NCBI GenBank assembly: GCA_036275915.1
Contig: DASUCV010000001.1
Coordinates: 62,001-126,000, forward strand
DNA from: Candidatus Polarisedimenticolaceae bacterium
GTDB lineage: Bacteria > Acidobacteriota > Polarisedimenticolia > Polarisedimenticolales > DASRJG01
Direction of reading: 5' to 3'
DNA length: 64,000 bases
Part shown: piece after piece, positions 54,943 to 63,522 of the stretch
Numbering within the stretch: position 1 is the first letter of the stretch
How the letters are laid out: every line of letters begins with the position of its first letter
The notes under the pieces: generated by a model
Databases searched by the model: none
What the model saw: only the letters and a program-made list of their open reading frames with translations
What the model was told of the DNA's origin: nothing
Translations under genes and position numbers: made by a program

Positions 54943-54972
54943 ACGTTAGCACCGTCGCCCTCGGATCGTCAA
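54943..54972 (-). promoter_or_regulatory. Promoter of the leader RNA/C4 zinc-ribbon operon
   Basis: Minus strand -35 TTGACG (54967-54972), 18-base spacer, -10 TAACGT (54943-54948) preceded by an extended TG. The -35 overlaps the end of the SpmAB-like gene. Confidence 0.5.
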
Positions 54973-56252
54973 CCATGCCACACCAGGCGGCAGATGAAGA
55001 CCGCGGCCGCGATGCCGGCGGCGTCGGTCAGAAGCCCGGCCAAGACCGCATGCCGGGTCTTCTTGATCCCCACCGCCCCGAAGTAGACGGACAGGATGTA
55101 GAACGTCGTGTCGGTGCTCCCCTGCATCGTGCTCGCGAGGATGCCGAGATAGGAGTCGGGACCGTGCGTCGTCACGATCTCGCTCATGACCCCGTAGGCA
55201 CCGGACCCCGAGAGCGGGCGAAGGACGGCGAGCGGCACCGCCTCGGCCGGGAGGCCCAGCGGTGACGTCAACGGCGACAGCACCTGCACGACGACGTCGA
55301 GGCACCCCGACGCGCGGAACATCCCCACCGCAACGACGATCGCCAGGAGATACGGGATGATCCTGAGCGCGACCTGGAACCCCTCCTTCGCCCCCTCGAG
55401 GAACACCTCGTAGACCTTGACCCCGCGCGCCCACCCGAAGAGCACGATGAGCGCGACGAGGAGCGGCAGCGTCCAGTACGACATGATCGTGCGCGCGAGT
55501 TCTCCCGCGGGCATCGTCGATGCGGCTCGGATGAGAACCCCGATGAGGATGACGATGTAACCGCCCGCGATCCAAGGGATGAAACGCGAGACCGCCGGTC
55601 TCGTCTGAGGCGGCGCGTCGACGGCCTCAGAGGAAACCATGGACGGAGGCATCACTCCGGGATCGGTCGCCTTGAACCACGGGAGCCGGGACAGCAGGAT
55701 CGCCGAAGCGATTCCGACGATCGTGGCGCACCCCGATGCAAACCACGTCGCGGCGAGGATCGAACCGGGGGCCTTCGAGCCCGCCGACGCCCGGAGCGCC
55801 AGCACCGTCGTCGGCAAGATCGCGAACCCCGCCGTATTGATCGAGAGGAAGGTCACCATCGCGTTCGTGGCGACCCCTTTCCGGGGGTTGAGGGTGTCGA
55901 GCTCCTGCATCGCGCGGATCCCGAACGGCGTCGCCGCGCTGCCGAGGCCGAGGATGTTGCTCGCGATGCTGAGAAGCATCGCGCTCATCGCGGGATGATC
56001 GGCGGGAACTCCGCGGAAGAGCCGACGCATCACAGGCGCGGCGGCGCGCGCGAGGAGGCGCAAGGCGCCGCCGTCCTGCACGACCCGCATCAGCCCGAGG
56101 AAGAACGAGAGAGCACCGATGAGACCGAGCGCGAGCTGAACCGAGCGGCCGGCGTCATCGAGGATGCCGGTGGAGAGCGCTTCCATGCGGCCGCTTGCTG
56201 CCGCGGCGAGGACGGAGACGAGGACCAGCAGCACGAACGCGGCGTTGAGCAC
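54969..56252 (-). CDS. Fused SpmA/SpmB-like nucleoside-recognition membrane protein
   Basis: A 427-residue membrane protein with two similar gate (nucleoside recognition) domains: residues about 30-200 (LGLIGALSFFLGLMRVVQDGGALRLLARAAAPVMRRLF, SNILGLGSAATPFGIRAMQEL) and 235-427 (GAKEGFQVALRIIPYLLAIVVAVGMFR, MQGSTDTTFYILSVYFGAVGIKK). They correspond to SpmA and SpmB, which are separate in Bacillus spore formers. In non-spore formers the role is unknown, perhaps solute movement. Starts with ATG at 56252. Confidence 0.85.
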   Translation of the reverse strand: MLNAAFVLLVLVSVLAAAASGRMEALSTGILDDAGRSVQLALGLIGALSFFLGLMRVVQDGGALRLLARAAAPVMRRLFRGVPADHPAMSAMLLSIASNILGLGSAATPFGIRAMQELDTLNPRKGVATNAMVTFLSINTAGFAILPTTVLALRASAGSKAPGSILAATWFASGCATIVGIASAILLSRLPWFKATDPGVMPPSMVSSEAVDAPPQTRPAVSRFIPWIAGGYIVILIGVLIRAASTMPAGELARTIMSYWTLPLLVALIVLFGWARGVKVYEVFLEGAKEGFQVALRIIPYLLAIVVAVGMFRASGCLDVVVQVLSPLTSPLGLPAEAVPLAVLRPLSGSGAYGVMSEIVTTHGPDSYLGILASTMQGSTDTTFYILSVYFGAVGIKKTRHAVLAGLLTDAAGIAAAVFICRLVWHG

Positions 56253-56274: not shown

Positions 56275-56721
56275 CTATTGACTTTGTTTCAGCGCCCGCC
56301 GCACGAGCGCGTCTTCCTCTTGCTCGTGCTCGCGGATCATGCCGATGAGGCGCGACAGCTCGGTGCGGAGCGTCGCGGTCTCGGCGGCGTCGGCGCGGCG
56401 CGCGAGGCCGCGGACCCGCTCGATCGCCTCGAGCATCCGGGCGTGCTGGGCGCGGATGCGCTTGACGTCGCTCTCGGCCTGGGGCAGCGCCTCTTGAACG
56501 CCCTGGAGCAGACCGCCGTCTTCTTCGGTGGCGAAGTGCTCCTCGAGCCGCTCCTTGAAGCTGTCGATGCGGACCGCGATCGTCCGCACGACCTCGGGAT
56601 CGGCCGGTGCTGCGCCCAAGGTTTCGACGGCGCGCTCGAGCTGATCCAGGTGGAAATGGATGTGACCGTGCTCGTCGAGCGATTCCGACGAGAGCTTGGA
56701 AAATGTCTGCGGACCGGTCAT
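56275..56721 (-). CDS. Hemerythrin-like HHE domain protein
   Basis: A 148-residue four-helix bundle with metal-ligand candidates spaced as in HHE domains: His in EHGHIHFHLDQLE, HFATEEDGGLL, RAQHARMLEAI and IREHEQEEDALV. Hemerythrin-like proteins bind a di-iron centre and handle oxygen or nitric oxide, or protect iron proteins. It lies 22 bases upstream of the SpmAB-like gene on the same strand. Confidence 0.8.
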   Translation of the reverse strand: MTGPQTFSKLSSESLDEHGHIHFHLDQLERAVETLGAAPADPEVVRTIAVRIDSFKERLEEHFATEEDGGLLQGVQEALPQAESDVKRIRAQHARMLEAIERVRGLARRADAAETATLRTELSRLIGMIREHEQEEDALVRRALKQSQ

Positions 56722-56788: not shown

Positions 56789-58240
56789 TCAAGTCGTCGA
56801 CGAGGAGACCGCCTTCACCGCGAGGCGGCGGGCGATCGTCTCGACCTGCTCTGCGGCGCTCGCGGCATCGAGATCGGCGGCCTGGATCTCGACGATCTCG
56901 ACCCGCCGCTTGCGGAGGACCGACGCGACCTGGCGGTAGGCCTCTTGCAGGCGCCCCAGAAAGGCTTCGTTCTGCCAGGGCTCGAGCGCGCGCCCCCTCA
57001 TGCGCAGGCGCTCCATCGCCGAGGCCGGGTCCCGCTCGACGAGGACGAGAACGTCGGGGATCGGCGGGTGCGCGAGGTCGAAGACGTTGAGGAGCCACAC
57101 CTCCGGCGCCTTGCGGATGAAGCGGAGCCATTGAGTCACCGGGATGCGCCTCTGGCCCGAGAGCTGGAGGAGGATCTCCTGGAGGCCGCGCTCGTCGAAC
57201 TGACCGCTGTAGAAGTCGGCCTCCGCCCAGGCGAGGAGATCGACGAGCGGGCTCCCGAGGCTGACGACGAAGCGCGCGGTGCGGCCGTCGGCGAGCGCCT
57301 CGTCGACACGGGCGCGCTCGATCATCTCGGCGAACTTGTTGCCGCGGTAGAGACCACCGGTGCGGAACGCCCAAGCGAGCGCCTTCGGCCACGTGCGGCT
57401 TCGCGCGGTCGCGATACCTTCGGAGGCGCGGACGGCGCCGCCTTCCGCCTCGACGAGCGACTCGGCGATGCCAATCGCGCGGCCGCTCTCGCCGAGCCGA
57501 GCGGTGAGCGTCTCGAAGAGCGGGCGACCGTCCTCGCCGTCGATCCCGCAGCAGGCGACGCGGATCGGCGGTAACGGGCGCGGTCCGGGGACCGGCGGCG
57601 GCGGAGGCGCGAGCGAGAGCACATCGGCGCGGAGCGCCTCGGCGATATCGCGGGCGTCGAGCAGGTGCGAGTAGGTGCGCGGTTTCCCGATCACGACGTC
57701 GATGCCGAGCGGGAGCGGCACCGCCTCGCCGCGCGGCAGGCTGCGCTCCGCGCCCGAGAGGAACACCGGGACGACGAGGACACCCGGCACGCTCTTGACG
57801 ATCTTTCCGATCCCCGGCCGGAACGCCGCAACGACTCCCGGCTCGCCGCGGCTCCCCTCGGGGAAGAAGATGAGCGACTCGCCTTCCTGCAGCGCATCGA
57901 TCATCGGCGAGAGCACGTCGCGCCCGGGGGCCGCCGTCCGCTCGATCGCCATCGCGTTCATCCCGACCATCGCCGCGCCGCGCCGGATCGCGTTCTGGCC
58001 GAAGTAGTCGGCCGCCGCGACCGGGTGCACATGAGGGAGGCGGCGGAGCGGGAAGATCGACATGAGGACGGCGGCGTCGATGTGGGAGTTGTGGTTCGCG
58101 ACGACGATGCACGGCCCCTCGGGGACATGGTGCAGGCGGCGGTACCGCGCCCCCCAGAACCACTTGAGCATCGGGCGGATGAAGCCGAGCTGGAATGCGT
58201 ACATTCCCGCGAGGCGGAGCACACGGGCGAGCCGGTTCAC
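56789..58240 (-). CDS. PlsC-type acyltransferase fused to thymidylate-kinase-like domain
   Basis: A 483-residue fusion. Residues 25-205 are a PlsC acyltransferase with ANHNSHIDAAVL (H50 and D55 of HX4D) and FFPEGSRGEPG (126-135). A proline-rich linker (211-225) leads to a thymidylate-kinase-like domain starting VACCGIDGEDGRPLFETL, where the P-loop lysine and Ser/Thr (GKST) are replaced by GRPL, so ATP binding is doubtful; LVERDPASAMERLRMRGR and DLDAASAAEQVETI resemble the rest of the fold. GTG start in a GTGA overlap with the CdsA-like gene. Confidence 0.75.
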   Translation of the reverse strand: MNRLARVLRLAGMYAFQLGFIRPMLKWFWGARYRRLHHVPEGPCIVVANHNSHIDAAVLMSIFPLRRLPHVHPVAAADYFGQNAIRRGAAMVGMNAMAIERTAAPGRDVLSPMIDALQEGESLIFFPEGSRGEPGVVAAFRPGIGKIVKSVPGVLVVPVFLSGAERSLPRGEAVPLPLGIDVVIGKPRTYSHLLDARDIAEALRADVLSLAPPPPPVPGPRPLPPIRVACCGIDGEDGRPLFETLTARLGESGRAIGIAESLVEAEGGAVRASEGIATARSRTWPKALAWAFRTGGLYRGNKFAEMIERARVDEALADGRTARFVVSLGSPLVDLLAWAEADFYSGQFDERGLQEILLQLSGQRRIPVTQWLRFIRKAPEVWLLNVFDLAHPPIPDVLVLVERDPASAMERLRMRGRALEPWQNEAFLGRLQEAYRQVASVLRKRRVEIVEIQAADLDAASAAEQVETIARRLAVKAVSSSTT

Positions 58241-59103
58241 GACGTGATCGTTCTGACGTAATGATAGAACGCCGGGGCGGCGTAGATGAGCGGGAGCGTC
58301 CTGTCGAGGAATGCCGCGCGGCCCAGGAGCGCGTCGCCGGGCGACCGGTCGAGGTCCTGCGCGACCGCGTCGCAGACGAGCGATCCGGCGGCGGTGCCGA
58401 GCGCCGCGAGGCAGCCGGCCCCGGCGCCGTGGATCCCGATGATCCCGGCGTCCGCCGCGAGGAGGTAACCCGCCGCTGCGGCGATCGCGGCGCTCACGAT
58501 CAGGCCGAGGAGCGGCCTCACACGCTCGGCTCCGGGCCTCATGCGGCCGACGAGGCGCTGCGTGAGATCGGCGGGGAGCGCAACGATCGCGAACAGCTCG
58601 AGGCAGCCGCGCGGAAGCTGCGTCATGAGGCCAAGATGCGCCGCGCAGAAGACGAAGACGAACTCGCCGAGGAGCACGCGCCCGAGCGAGTCGAGGAGGC
58701 CCGGCTGCCGCGGCGAGATCGAGAGGAGGACGGGAATCAAGAGGAAGAGGCCGACGACGGTGGCACCGGAGAGGAGCGTGAATGATCCGGCCCACGCGGG
58801 CCACAGCGCGAGCGGCACCGAGGCGTACGTCAGGAAGATCGCCCACCGATCCTGCGGCCGGAGCGGCGTCAGGAAGTAGTACTGCTTGAGTGCGACGAAC
58901 ATCACGATGCCGAGGAGCGGGAACGAGATCGCCGGCATGGCGCGGGAGAGAGCGACGACGAGGACGGAAAACTGCGTCCACGCCCAGAGCCACCCGGTCA
59001 GACCGCGGAACCGTCCGCCCCGGCGGCCCAGGACGATCGCGACCGGGGCGAGCAGCACGAGCATCGCGGCCAGGACGAGATCGAGCCTCGGAATCGCGGA
59101 CAT
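58237..59103 (-). CDS. CdsA-like phosphatidate cytidylyltransferase homologue
   Basis: A 288-residue protein with about eight hydrophobic helices. The C-terminal signature region reads CDAVAQDLDRSPGDALLGRAAFLDRTLPLIYAAPAFY, which aligns with the CdsA signature but lacks its KRD and GHGG residues, so activity as a CDP-DAG synthase is uncertain. The equivalent motif in family members has PGHGGxLDRxD. ATG at 59103 follows GGAGGGG; ATG 59121 is an alternative. Between the acyltransferase fusion and the MATE gene. Confidence 0.7.
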   Translation of the reverse strand: MSAIPRLDLVLAAMLVLLAPVAIVLGRRGGRFRGLTGWLWAWTQFSVLVVALSRAMPAISFPLLGIVMFVALKQYYFLTPLRPQDRWAIFLTYASVPLALWPAWAGSFTLLSGATVVGLFLLIPVLLSISPRQPGLLDSLGRVLLGEFVFVFCAAHLGLMTQLPRGCLELFAIVALPADLTQRLVGRMRPGAERVRPLLGLIVSAAIAAAAGYLLAADAGIIGIHGAGAGCLAALGTAAGSLVCDAVAQDLDRSPGDALLGRAAFLDRTLPLIYAAPAFYHYVRTITS

Positions 59104-59120
59104 CCCCCCTCCGCCGTCCA

Positions 59121-60476
59121 TTATGCGTTCTGCAGGGTTTCCCGGGCGTGGACGAGCGCGCGCCGCGTCCACGAGAGGAAGATGATCGAGCTGACCGCCG
59201 TGGCAGCGCCGAGGCCGACGACGAGCCCCATGACCGGCGAAAGCCCGAGCCCGGGAGCCAGCGTCCGGCCCGCCCAGGCCGCCGGCGCCGCCAGGAGCAG
59301 ATACCGCAGCAACGACATCGCCAGGCCGGGACGTCCCCGGCCCATCCCCTCGAAGACGGGGCGGCACAGGAAGAACGGCATCGCGACGAGCGCAATGAGC
59401 GGGATGAGCCTGAGCGCCGGGACGAGGTAGGACACGGTGACCGGCGAGGTGGTGAGGTGGTGAGCGAGCGGAGGAGCCGTGAGCCACACGATCGGTGCCG
59501 TGATCACGACGTAGATCGCGCCGGCGAGGTGAGCTTGCTTGAGGCCGCTTGTGACGCCGGCCACGTCCCTCTCGCCGAAGCGCCGTCCGGCGAACGGCAG
59601 CATCGCCACCGACGCCGCGATCGCGGGCGTGACGATGAACTGGAAGACCCGGTAGTAGATCGCGTACGCGGCGAGCGCTTCCTTCCCGTGCTCGGTCGTC
59701 TTGAGCAGCCAGTTGACGACGCCGGTTTCCGAGGCCATGAGCAGGTAGGCCATCGCCGAGGGAAGGGCGAGCGCGAAGAGCGAGCGGTAAGGGCTGGGGT
59801 CTTCCCCGGGGACCTCCGGCTCGTGGCGCGCTTTCCGCTCCGCCTCGTGGCGCGCCGCCTTGCGAAGCGCGTAGACGAGGCCGCCGAAGCGGCCCACGAC
59901 AGTGGAGAACGCGATCCCGAAGATGCCCCAATGGAACCAGAACGTGAAGATCGTGTTGAGCGCGACGTTGATGACGTTCGACCAGATGCCCGCCCACATC
60001 GTGGCCTTCGTGTCGCCGTGCGCCTTGACGATCGAGTCGGGGATTACCGACCAGAAGAGCGTGAATCCGCTGCCGGCGACAAGGACGGAGCCGTAAATCG
60101 CAAACTCGTGGGCGACCTCGGGGCCCGGCGACAGCCGCCCGGCGAAGACCCAGCACCCCGCGCCGATCAGGCAGAAGACCGGTATGCACACGAGGACGAG
60201 CGTCCACGTCTTGCTCAGGTACTGCCGGAGCTTCGTCTCCTGGTGAGCGCCCATCGCGCGGGAGAAGTTCGACGTGAGCCCGGTGGAGAGGCCGACCCAC
60301 ACCGCGATCATGATCAGCTCGAACGGGAACGACAGACCGATCGCCGCGACGGCGGCGTCGGAATTCGGCAGGCGCGACGCGTAATACGTGTCGACGAACG
60401 TGAAGAGCACCCTCATCCAGAACGACACGATGAGCGGCGCCGTCATCTCGAGAAGGCCGGGGGCCCGCTTCGTCAT
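59121..60476 (-). CDS. MATE-family efflux transporter
   Basis: A 451-residue transporter with 12 hydrophobic helices in two six-helix halves: LEMTAPLIVSFWMRVLFTFVDTYYASRLPNSDAAVAAIGLSFP and later KEALAAYAIYYRVFQFIVTP. The family exports cations, drugs or lipid-linked precursors using Na+ or H+. ATG 60476 overlaps the RlmN-like stop (ATGA). Neighbouring lipid genes make a lipid substrate possible. Confidence 0.85.
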   Translation of the reverse strand: MTKRAPGLLEMTAPLIVSFWMRVLFTFVDTYYASRLPNSDAAVAAIGLSFPFELIMIAVWVGLSTGLTSNFSRAMGAHQETKLRQYLSKTWTLVLVCIPVFCLIGAGCWVFAGRLSPGPEVAHEFAIYGSVLVAGSGFTLFWSVIPDSIVKAHGDTKATMWAGIWSNVINVALNTIFTFWFHWGIFGIAFSTVVGRFGGLVYALRKAARHEAERKARHEPEVPGEDPSPYRSLFALALPSAMAYLLMASETGVVNWLLKTTEHGKEALAAYAIYYRVFQFIVTPAIAASVAMLPFAGRRFGERDVAGVTSGLKQAHLAGAIYVVITAPIVWLTAPPLAHHLTTSPVTVSYLVPALRLIPLIALVAMPFFLCRPVFEGMGRGRPGLAMSLLRYLLLAAPAAWAGRTLAPGLGLSPVMGLVVGLGAATAVSSIIFLSWTRRALVHARETLQNA

Positions 60477-61519
60477 GCGGGACGGCCGCCCTGCGCCGTC
60501 GAGGCGAGCATGCCGCACGCGGCGTGGATGTCGGGGCCGCCGGAGTATCGCCGCACGAAGGCGATGCCGCGCGCGCGGAGAGCCTCGAAGAACCGCCCGC
60601 GCTCGACGTCGTCCGGGGGCGTGAACCGCCCCGACGGATCGTTCACGTCGATCGCGTGGAGACGGACGGGCCGGCCTTCGAACGCGCGGACGATCGCGTC
60701 GGCCTCATCGTCGCCGGTGTTGACGCCGGCCATCAGCACCCAGCCGAGGTGGACCGGGCCGCCGCGGAGGTCCGCGAGACGTCCCATCGCCCGCGCGAGC
60801 TCGGCGACCGGCCACGTCGCCGCGATCGGCACGAGGGAACGCCGCTTCGCGTCGATCGCGGAGGTGAGGGACAGGATGAGCCGGTAGACGTGTCCATCGT
60901 CGGCGAACCGCTCGATCGCGGGAACGAGCCCGACCGTCGAGATCGTGATCGACTCGCCGCGGATGCGCAGGCCGTTCGGATCCCGCATCACGGCCGCCGC
61001 CTGCATGACCGCGTCGTAGTTCTGGAGCGGCTCCCCCTGCCCCTGGAAGACGACGCCGGTGACCGGACGATCGGCCGGCGCCTCTCGCTTCACGGCGACG
61101 ACCTGCTCGACGATCTCCCACGCTTCGAGCGAGCGGGTCAGGCCGAGGCGGCCGGTCTCGCAGAACGCGCAGCCGAGCCCGCATCCGGCCTGCGACGACA
61201 CGCAGACGGAGAAGCGCGGCTTCTCGAGCGGGATCCGCACGGTCTCGACGAGCGCACCGTCGCCGGCGCGGAACAGATACTTGACGAACGGATCGACCGC
61301 GCTCGCGCGCCGGTCGACGACGGTGAGACCGTCGAGGCGCGCCTCCGCGGCGAGCGCACGCGCCGACGCCTTCGGAAGGCCGCGGATCCCGTCGAGGTCC
61401 GAGCGCCCTTGGCCGGTGACGCGCTCGATGATCCGCCGCGCGAGGGTCTCGTCGATGACGAGATCGGGCCGGGCCGAGAGCAGCGACGCGGGGGTGTGCC
61501 CGCGCAGATGCAAGCTCAA
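60473..61519 (-). CDS. RlmN/Cfr-family radical SAM methyltransferase, TTG start
   Basis: A 348-residue radical SAM enzyme: iron-sulfur motif [11 protein letters not shown] (CxxxCxxC), [17 protein letters not shown] in place of the usual FMGMGEP, and the catalytic Cys in HAACGML at the C-terminus. RlmN methylates A2503 of 23S rRNA and some tRNAs; Cfr methylates C8 of the same base. Start is TTG 61519 in a TTGA overlap with the transketolase stop; upstream frames belong to that gene. RlmN is the default assignment. Confidence 0.82.
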
Positions 61520-63522
61520 CGCGTCCCCAGCCACGTCGCGATCTTGTCGGTCACCGCCGGAACGGTGAATCCGAACTTCTCCCCGTTGACCGCCGCCGGC
61601 GCCGAGGCGCCGTAACGATCGATCCCGATCCGAAGTCCCTTCGGACCGGTGAGGCCGAGCCAGGGATCGGTGCGTCCGGCCTCGATCGTTGCGACGGGAA
61701 GCCCTTCGGGGAACAGCTCGCTCCGGTAGCGCGCGTCCTGCTCGTGGAAGATCTCGACGCACGGCAGCGAGACGACGTTGAGTCGCATCCCCCGCTTCGC
61801 GAGCGCCTCGCGCGCCCCCATCGCGAGATGGAGCTCGGATCCGGTCGCGGCGACCACGGCGTGCGGGTTGCCGTCGCCGGCGACGAGGTAGCCGCCGCGG
61901 CGGAAGTCGGCTTCGCCGAGCCCGGCGCGCCGCGCGATCTTGGGAAGCTTCTGACGCGATAGAAGGATGACGCTCGGACCGTCCTGGCGCTCGAGCGCCA
62001 TCCCCCAGGCGAGGGCCGTCTCGAGGCCGTCCGCCGGGCGCCACACGTGGAGGAACGGGATGAGCCGGAGCGACGAGACGTGCTCGATCGGCTCGTGCGT
62101 CGGCCCGTCCTCGCCGACGAAGATCGAGTCGTGCGTGAAGACATGGATCGCGGGGATGCGCGAGAGGGCGGCGAGCCGGAAGACCGGCCTCATGTAATCG
62201 GAGAAGACGAGGAACGTCGCACCGAACGGCCGGAACGCGCCGTGGTAGAGGATCCCGTTGACGATCGCTCCCATCGCGTGCTCGCGGATGCCGAAGTGGA
62301 AGTTGCGGCCCTCGAAATGTCCCGGCCCCACCGATTCCGCATCTTTGATGAGCGTCAGCGTCGACGGCGCCAGGTCCGCCGATCCTCCGATGAGCGCGGG
62401 AACGATCGCCGCCGCCTGCTGGATGACCGCCCGCCCGTGCTCACGGGTCGCGGCGTCGCCGTCGGGCGCCGAGGCGAGGAGCTGCGCGACGACGTCGGCC
62501 GGCACCGTCCGCTCCCACACCGCCTTCCAGTCGGCCGCTTGAACCGGACGGCTCTCGGCCCACTCGTCGAACCTGGCTTCCCACCCGGTGCGGAGGGCGG
62601 CGCCTTCCTGCGCGCGCGCACGGAAGAACTCGCGCACCTCGTCGGGCACGAGGAACGCGGGCTCGAGGGGCCAGCCGAGATTCTCCTTCGCCGCCTTCAC
62701 CTCTTCGGCGCCGAGCGGCGACCCGTGCGCTTCGGCGGAGTCTTGCTTCCGCGGCGCGCCGTAGGCGATGTGGGTGCGGCACGCGATGAACGACGGCCGC
62801 GCTCGCTCCGCGATCGCCGCGTCGATCGCCTTCGCGATCGCGCCGTGATCGTGCCCGTCGATCTTCTGGACGTGCCAGCCGTACGCCGCGTAGCGCGCGG
62901 GCACGTCCTCCGAGAACGAGAGCGCGGTCTTCCCCTCGATCGAGATCCCGTTGTCGTCGTAGAGCACGATCAGGTTCCCGAGGCCGAGGTGCCCGGCGAG
63001 CGAGGACGCCTCGCCCGAGATCCCCTCCATCATGTCGCCGTCGCTCGCGAGCACGAAGATCCGGTGCGCCACCGGCTGGAAGGTCGCGTCGTTGAAGCGC
63101 GTCGCGGCCATCTTTCCGGCGAGCGCCATGCCGACGGCGTTCGAGATCCCCTGGCCGAGCGGCCCCGTCGTCGCCTCGACGCCGACGGTGTGGCCGAACT
63201 CGGGGTGGCCCGGAGTCTTGCTCCCCCACTGCCGGAACTGCTGCAGCTCGCTCATCGGCAGGTCGTAACCTGCGAGATGGAGGAGCCCGTAGAGCAGCAT
63301 GCAGCCGTGGCCCGCCGAGAGCACGAAGCGGTCGCGGTCGGGCCAGTCGGGGGCGGTGGGGTCGTAGCGGAGGAACCGGCTCCAGAGGACGAAGGCGACG
63401 TCCGCCGCCCCCATCGGCAACCCGGGGTGGCCGGACTTCGCCTTCTCGACCGCATCGACCGCGAGGAAGCGGATCGTGTTGGCGGCGGTGCGCGAAAGCT
63501 GGGCGTCGGGTGCGCGCGACAT
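61516..63522 (-). CDS. tkt: Transketolase
   Basis: A 668-residue thiamine diphosphate enzyme: [56 protein letters not shown], the thiamine site [22 protein letters not shown] and NGISIEG, then [12 protein letters not shown] in the second domain. It moves two-carbon units in the pentose phosphate pathway. ATG at 63522 has AGGAGG upstream; the gene is divergent from the PEBP gene. Confidence 0.95.

Follow-up and report, generated by a model that had tools for sequence, protein, structure and literature searches.

A CdsA-like protein and an acyltransferase fused to a kinase-fold domain: an altered CdsA-acyltransferase gene pair in the order Polarisedimenticolales

We identified a variant of the known CdsA-acyltransferase module, newly with two parts that we predict to be pseudoenzymes, in a 64,000-nucleotide stretch of the genome of a Candidatus Polarisedimenticolaceae bacterium (assembly GCA_036275915.1, contig DASUCV010000001.1; G000:C1:62001-126000 in our numbering). 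This stretch, hereafter the window, comes from a genome of 4.5 Mb. The variant consists of two genes on the minus strand. One (58237-59103, with a possible alternative start at 59121) encodes a protein with the predicted fold of a YnbB-type cytidine diphosphate-diacylglycerol (CDP-DAG) synthase, from which the catalytic signature has been lost. The other (56789-58240; 483 codons, beginning with a GTG that overlaps the upstream CdsA-like stop codon) encodes a PlsC-type acyltransferase (AcT) domain, at approximately residues 1-215 (57596-58240), fused to a C-terminal domain (56792-57574) that has the fold of the thymidylate kinase/deoxynucleoside kinase (TMK/dNK) family without its Walker A motif. 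We favor, with middling confidence, the reading that a working AcT acts here with two pseudoenzyme partners and that the two genes go back to a YnbB-type CdsA-acyltransferase operon.

Conservation of the gene pair

Our sample contained ten genomes of the window's order, among 396 genomes of the phylum Acidobacteriota. The fusion is present in all ten, split over two contig ends in G009, and the CdsA-like gene lies directly upstream of it in the window and in each of the nine relatives. The orthologues of both proteins are 38-61% identical to those of the window, with frames open in all ten genomes. Full-length kinase-fold domains (at least 360 bits) were found in 10 of the 396 genomes, all in the order; outside it, 23 other genomes of the phylum gave partial matches over short stretches only, at no more than 26.2 bits. 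The CdsA-like family is similarly distributed, with scores of at least 403 bits in the ten order genomes and of at most 98.4 bits for all other matches. A peptide-pattern scan of named genomes returned five loci, all from order genomes already sampled; distant relatives in other phyla could escape such a pattern, and the profile search covered the phylum only.

Between G006 and G008, which belong to the same genus, the ratio of nonsynonymous to synonymous substitution rates (dN/dS, by NG86) comes to 0.14 over the whole fusion, with 0.11 in the AcT part and 0.16 in the C-terminal part; the CdsA-like gene has 0.08. In this pair of genomes, purifying selection acts on both genes, including the parts that look dead. 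The window's genome also encodes a full CdsA apart from the pair (184.6 bits), a separate TMK with GIEGSGKS and DRF motifs, a second kinase of that family with GPIGVGKT, and four other PF01553 acyltransferase genes. Given these complete-looking CdsA, TMK, and AcT genes, the altered genes must be accessory and not the cell's sole copies.

The CdsA-like protein

The CdsA-like protein of the window has no match to PF01148, a family matched by four of the ten orthologues, with a best expectation value (E) of 1.5e-6. A profile search of PDB sequences with the CdsA-like family gave nothing meaningful, and the link to solved CdsA comes from fold comparison only. The structure model (predicted local distance difference test, pLDDT, 83.7; predicted template modelling score, pTM, 0.84) aligns with the Thermotoga maritima CdsA (TmCdsA, 4q2g) with a Z score of 16.4 and a root-mean-square deviation (rmsd) of 4.2 over 236 residues, and the next matches are unrelated membrane proteins with Z scores of 5.9 or less. 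The Foldseek E-value of the model against CdsA is just 0.033.

We aligned the ten sequences with 11 YnbB-type and 12 other reference CdsA sequences, which keep nearly all of the signature residues. The elements of the CdsA signature that we tested (the SPxKT loop, KR, KD, GHGG, and DRxDS) are lost in all ten. The HKxxPxxSPxKTWEG stretch is gone throughout, as are Lys 255, Asp 262, and Asp 277 (the later of the two in DRxDS). In every case Arg takes the place of His 269, which belongs to GHGG. Judging from the motifs, positions 262 and 277 would be the described CdsA dyad. Trp 45, Arg 149, Arg 190, and Arg 269 are invariant among the ten and occur at the same places in none of the 23 references, a pattern not expected of decay. 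The invariant Arg residues in the former active site are Arg 190, Arg 269, and Arg 275 (numbering of P0002). From the model and the alignment together, the protein appears to be a pseudoenzyme, which we call pseudo-CdsA, with the CdsA fold kept and the binding of CTP and metal of the known kind lost.

The same residues could be read differently. The altered CdsA, or the kinase-fold domain described below, could be alive with another chemistry or with transport, such as phosphatidyl transfer, hydrolysis of phosphatidic acid (PA), or lipid scrambling. Invariant new residues in the old CdsA active site (Arg 190 and Arg 269 in all ten) are unlike random drift, and the purifying selection also fits an active protein. 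However, all ten sequences have lost the key Asp residues together with the SPxKT loop, we identified no nucleophile or metal site, and we found no relative with such an activity. We regard this explanation as rather unlikely.

The kinase-fold domain

The C-terminal domain of the window's fusion scores 16.1 and 13.6 bits against PF01712 and PF02223, below the curated cut-off of 27, and the best of the ten orthologues reaches E-values of 0.0011 and 0.00077, a weak sequence match. Residues 221-483 of the AlphaFold2 model match TMK/dNK structures with Z scores of 13.6-15.0 and a Foldseek E-value of 8.4e-6. The position of the P-loop reads GIDGEDGRPLF in the window, the loop is unconserved among the other orthologues, and the Walker A motif is absent from all ten. 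Kinases of the TMK/dNK family carry DR(Y/H/F) or ERS after a strand; in our own reading of the alignment, all ten sequences have Gly where the Arg of this motif is placed. The DRF and DRY strings in L034 and L038 fall elsewhere in the domain by alignment. The most conserved stretch of the domain is R[KRN][AT]P[EA][VI]WL[LIV]N. The domain thus shares the fold of the TMK/dNK family but differs from it in the absent Walker A motif and the Gly in place of Arg, and from these residues it appears incapable of normal phosphoryl transfer.

The original prediction, made from the window alone, had described a lost P-loop in the TMK-like domain and a degenerate CdsA-like protein. Both observations hold in all ten orthologues, which is a stronger result than was first claimed; the alignments show the catalytic motifs of both to be lost, the fusion is not unique to this assembly, and the predicted folds are still those of CdsA, PlsC, and TMK/dNK.

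Among the profile and fold matches of the kinase-fold domain is NDUFA10 (E 0.02; Z 13.9), a dNK-family subunit of mitochondrial complex I that is reported (PMC9226000) to bind dGTP tightly. NDUFA10 likewise has the dNK fold and belongs to a membrane complex as an accessory component, but its partner is a different one and the P-loop is gone in our domain; the likeness implies no shared purpose. The match does lend something to the idea that the fusion is a nucleotide-sensing AcT, in which the domain would bind nucleotide without hydrolysis and so tie phospholipid acylation to the level of nucleotide or of CDP-DAG. The loss of the P-loop from all ten sequences should weaken phosphate binding, however, and we consider this idea unlikely.

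The acyltransferase domain

The N-terminal domain of the fusion matches PF01553 with 65.5 bits against a cut-off of 23 (E 5.6e-18) and falls under the cut-off of the NCBIfam model AGP_acyltrn, with 39.1 against 102.95 bits. Residues 1-215 of the model align with the 1-acyl-glycerol-3-phosphate acyltransferase PlsC (5kym) with a Z score of 14.5 and an rmsd of 3.9 over 188 residues (Foldseek E-value 7.3e-5). The HX4D motif (NHNSHID in the window) is intact in nine of the ten sequences, the tenth (L042) being truncated by a contig end before reaching this motif, and the FPEG motif (FPEGSRG) is intact in all ten. Because these catalytic motifs are kept, the AcT is probably the working enzyme of the unit. 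It resembles PlsC in fold and in both catalytic motifs, and it differs in its divergent sequence and in the addition of the C-terminal pseudokinase domain.

Ancestry of the pair

A YnbB-type CdsA beside an acyltransferase is a known CDP-DAG accessory module, and E. coli YnbB is treated in PMC6362211 and PMC7018664. We examined 12 loci of other CdsA-like or AcT matches, 11 of which hold a CdsA that we call YnbB-type by its motifs and setting; E. coli YnbB itself was outside the alignment. An AcT homologous to the first domain of the fusion adjoins the CdsA, or sits one gene from it, at 6 of the 11 YnbB-type loci, and a CDP-alcohol phosphatidyltransferase is adjacent at four intact loci (L115, L116, L118, and L121). 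The YnbB-type motifs are intact at these loci save for L117, where they are slightly changed. The L117 CdsA (L117:6402-7940, in G094), which also lies beside an AcT, has NPRKT for SPxKT and DRVNG for DRxDS, and may represent another altered lineage.

A phylogenetic tree of the CdsA sequences placed the ten pseudo-CdsAs with seven YnbB-type sequences (support 99/96), apart from housekeeping CdsA. The YnbB-type sequences fell into two groups, with the pseudo-CdsAs in one of them. In the AcT tree, the AcT domains of the fusions grouped (support 97/95) with a lone AcT from G005 and with four AcTs that lie next to CdsA genes. Support for separating the CdsA-linked AcTs as a whole from the remaining AcTs of the class was weak (50/26), and only the inner group holding the fusions is supported. 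The AcT tree was made without L024, one of 20 same-class loci, and without the truncated G009 fusion, and it replaces an earlier tree that used a loose motif rule, by which 12 loci failed and some of the sequences kept may have been in the wrong frame. By BLAST against the window's AcT domain, seven CdsA-linked or lone AcTs scored 94-130 bits and 19 other AcTs of the class scored at most 69.7 bits. The two trees thus point independently to one ancestral pair: each places the origin of its gene in a YnbB-type CdsA-acyltransferase pair, of which the phylum still has intact examples. G005 has the altered pair; elsewhere it also carries an unfused AcT (L122) and a YnbB-type CdsA that looks intact (L113).

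By ancestry, then, this is the same gene pair as the YnbB-type module, as represented by references assigned by motif and gene order. It differs from that module in that the CdsA signature is lost, the AcT has gained a kinase-fold domain, and a scan of seven window genes, which did not extend gene by gene to the nine order relatives, found no CDP-alcohol phosphatidyltransferase (PF01066). We found no description of this unit in the literature searched.

A possible mechanism

CdsA normally acts on PA, which PlsC-type enzymes produce, and TMKs dimerize. If the pair is a working AcT with two pseudoenzyme partners, then the AcT would most likely acylate lysophosphatidic acid (LPA) or another lysophospholipid. 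The pseudo-CdsA would probably be a membrane subunit whose task is to hold a phospholipid, for example PA or LPA, or to pass it on, because invariant Arg residues fill its former active site. The kinase-fold domain would probably dimerize or regulate the AcT. We infer that the fusion and the pseudo-CdsA form a physical complex.

Several points weigh against this reading. The interaction of the two proteins and the acyl acceptor are both things that we infer. The fusion model was built from six sequences and is of modest confidence (pLDDT 71.4, pTM 0.56), and the pseudo-CdsA model was also built from only six sequences. The dN/dS values come from one pair of genomes only. Asp 186 is kept in the window's pseudo-CdsA, with Glu in the other nine, and either of the altered domains may have acquired a novel catalytic function.

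A more elaborate form of the mechanism, which we think decidedly unlikely, has an AcT complex gated by two signals, in which the pseudo-CDP-DAG synthase would read or present PA and the pseudo-nucleotide-kinase would read a nucleotide.

Remaining alternatives and neighboring genes

A MATE family transporter gene (59121-60476, minus strand; PF01554, E 5.4e-37) adjoins the pair in the window. The frames of the MATE, CdsA-like, and fusion genes are all on the minus strand with overlapping ends. The original prediction had tentatively joined the three genes into a lipid-modification or transport unit with the pump as exporter, and this explanation draws on the MATE stop and the CdsA-like start overlapping, or nearly so. 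None of the nine relatives has a MATE gene close to the pair, and the adjacency is peculiar to the window's genome. MATE orthologues occur in three of the other order genomes sampled, all at other places. In G001, which belongs to the same family, the orthologue is on another contig, where it lies beside an RlmN-like gene as it does in the window. Since the two genes stand together in both genomes, the MATE gene belongs with its RlmN-like neighbor and is positioned here by chance. We have therefore ruled it out as part of the unit, and nothing found in our analysis points to transport by the unit. What stands of that proposal is the combination of two degenerate enzymes with an AcT, conserved in all ten genomes with the CdsA-like gene upstream of the fusion, and its ancestry among lipid enzymes; the MATE exporter and transport do not stand, and a unit including the pump is largely refuted and very improbable.

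The loss of catalytic motifs could suggest decaying pseudogenes or an assembly artefact, to which we give next to no credence, as it is refuted by the conservation of open frames in all ten genomes at 38-61% identity and with dN/dS far under 1.

The RlmN-like gene (60473-61540, minus strand) is a second member of the RlmN/Cfr radical SAM family, scoring 195 bits, under the RlmN cut-off of 290; the clear RlmN of the genome is at C4:455505-456515. It overlaps the MATE gene, and the two may form an rRNA-methylation and efflux pair. Directly downstream of the fusion is a hemerythrin-like (HHE) gene (56275-56721, minus strand), which occupies this position in eight of the nine relatives. Farther downstream of the unit is a gene (54969-56252, minus strand) whose product matches "Gate" (nucleoside recognition, PF07670) twice, and a "Gate" protein gene is near the pair in several order genomes. 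The zwf gene (glucose-6-phosphate dehydrogenase) lies divergently on the other side of the CdsA-like gene in eight of the nine relatives (L034, L036-L041, and L043), accompanied at some of these loci by further pentose-phosphate genes; the nearest gene of this type in the window is a transketolase (61516-63522). We take the zwf and hemerythrin-like neighbors to be inherited gene order.

Implications

Pseudoenzymes are well studied in eukaryotic signaling and less so in bacterial lipid synthesis. With two dead enzymes kept beside one AcT throughout an order, and with relatives of the intact pair in the same phylum, the gene pair offers a clean before-and-after case. It lets one ask what role the CdsA scaffold has without CDP-DAG synthesis and whether bacterial AcTs have regulatory subunits. 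If the AcT complex were indeed gated by two signals, one bacterial order would control phospholipid acylation by lipid and nucleotide signals through recycled dead enzymes.

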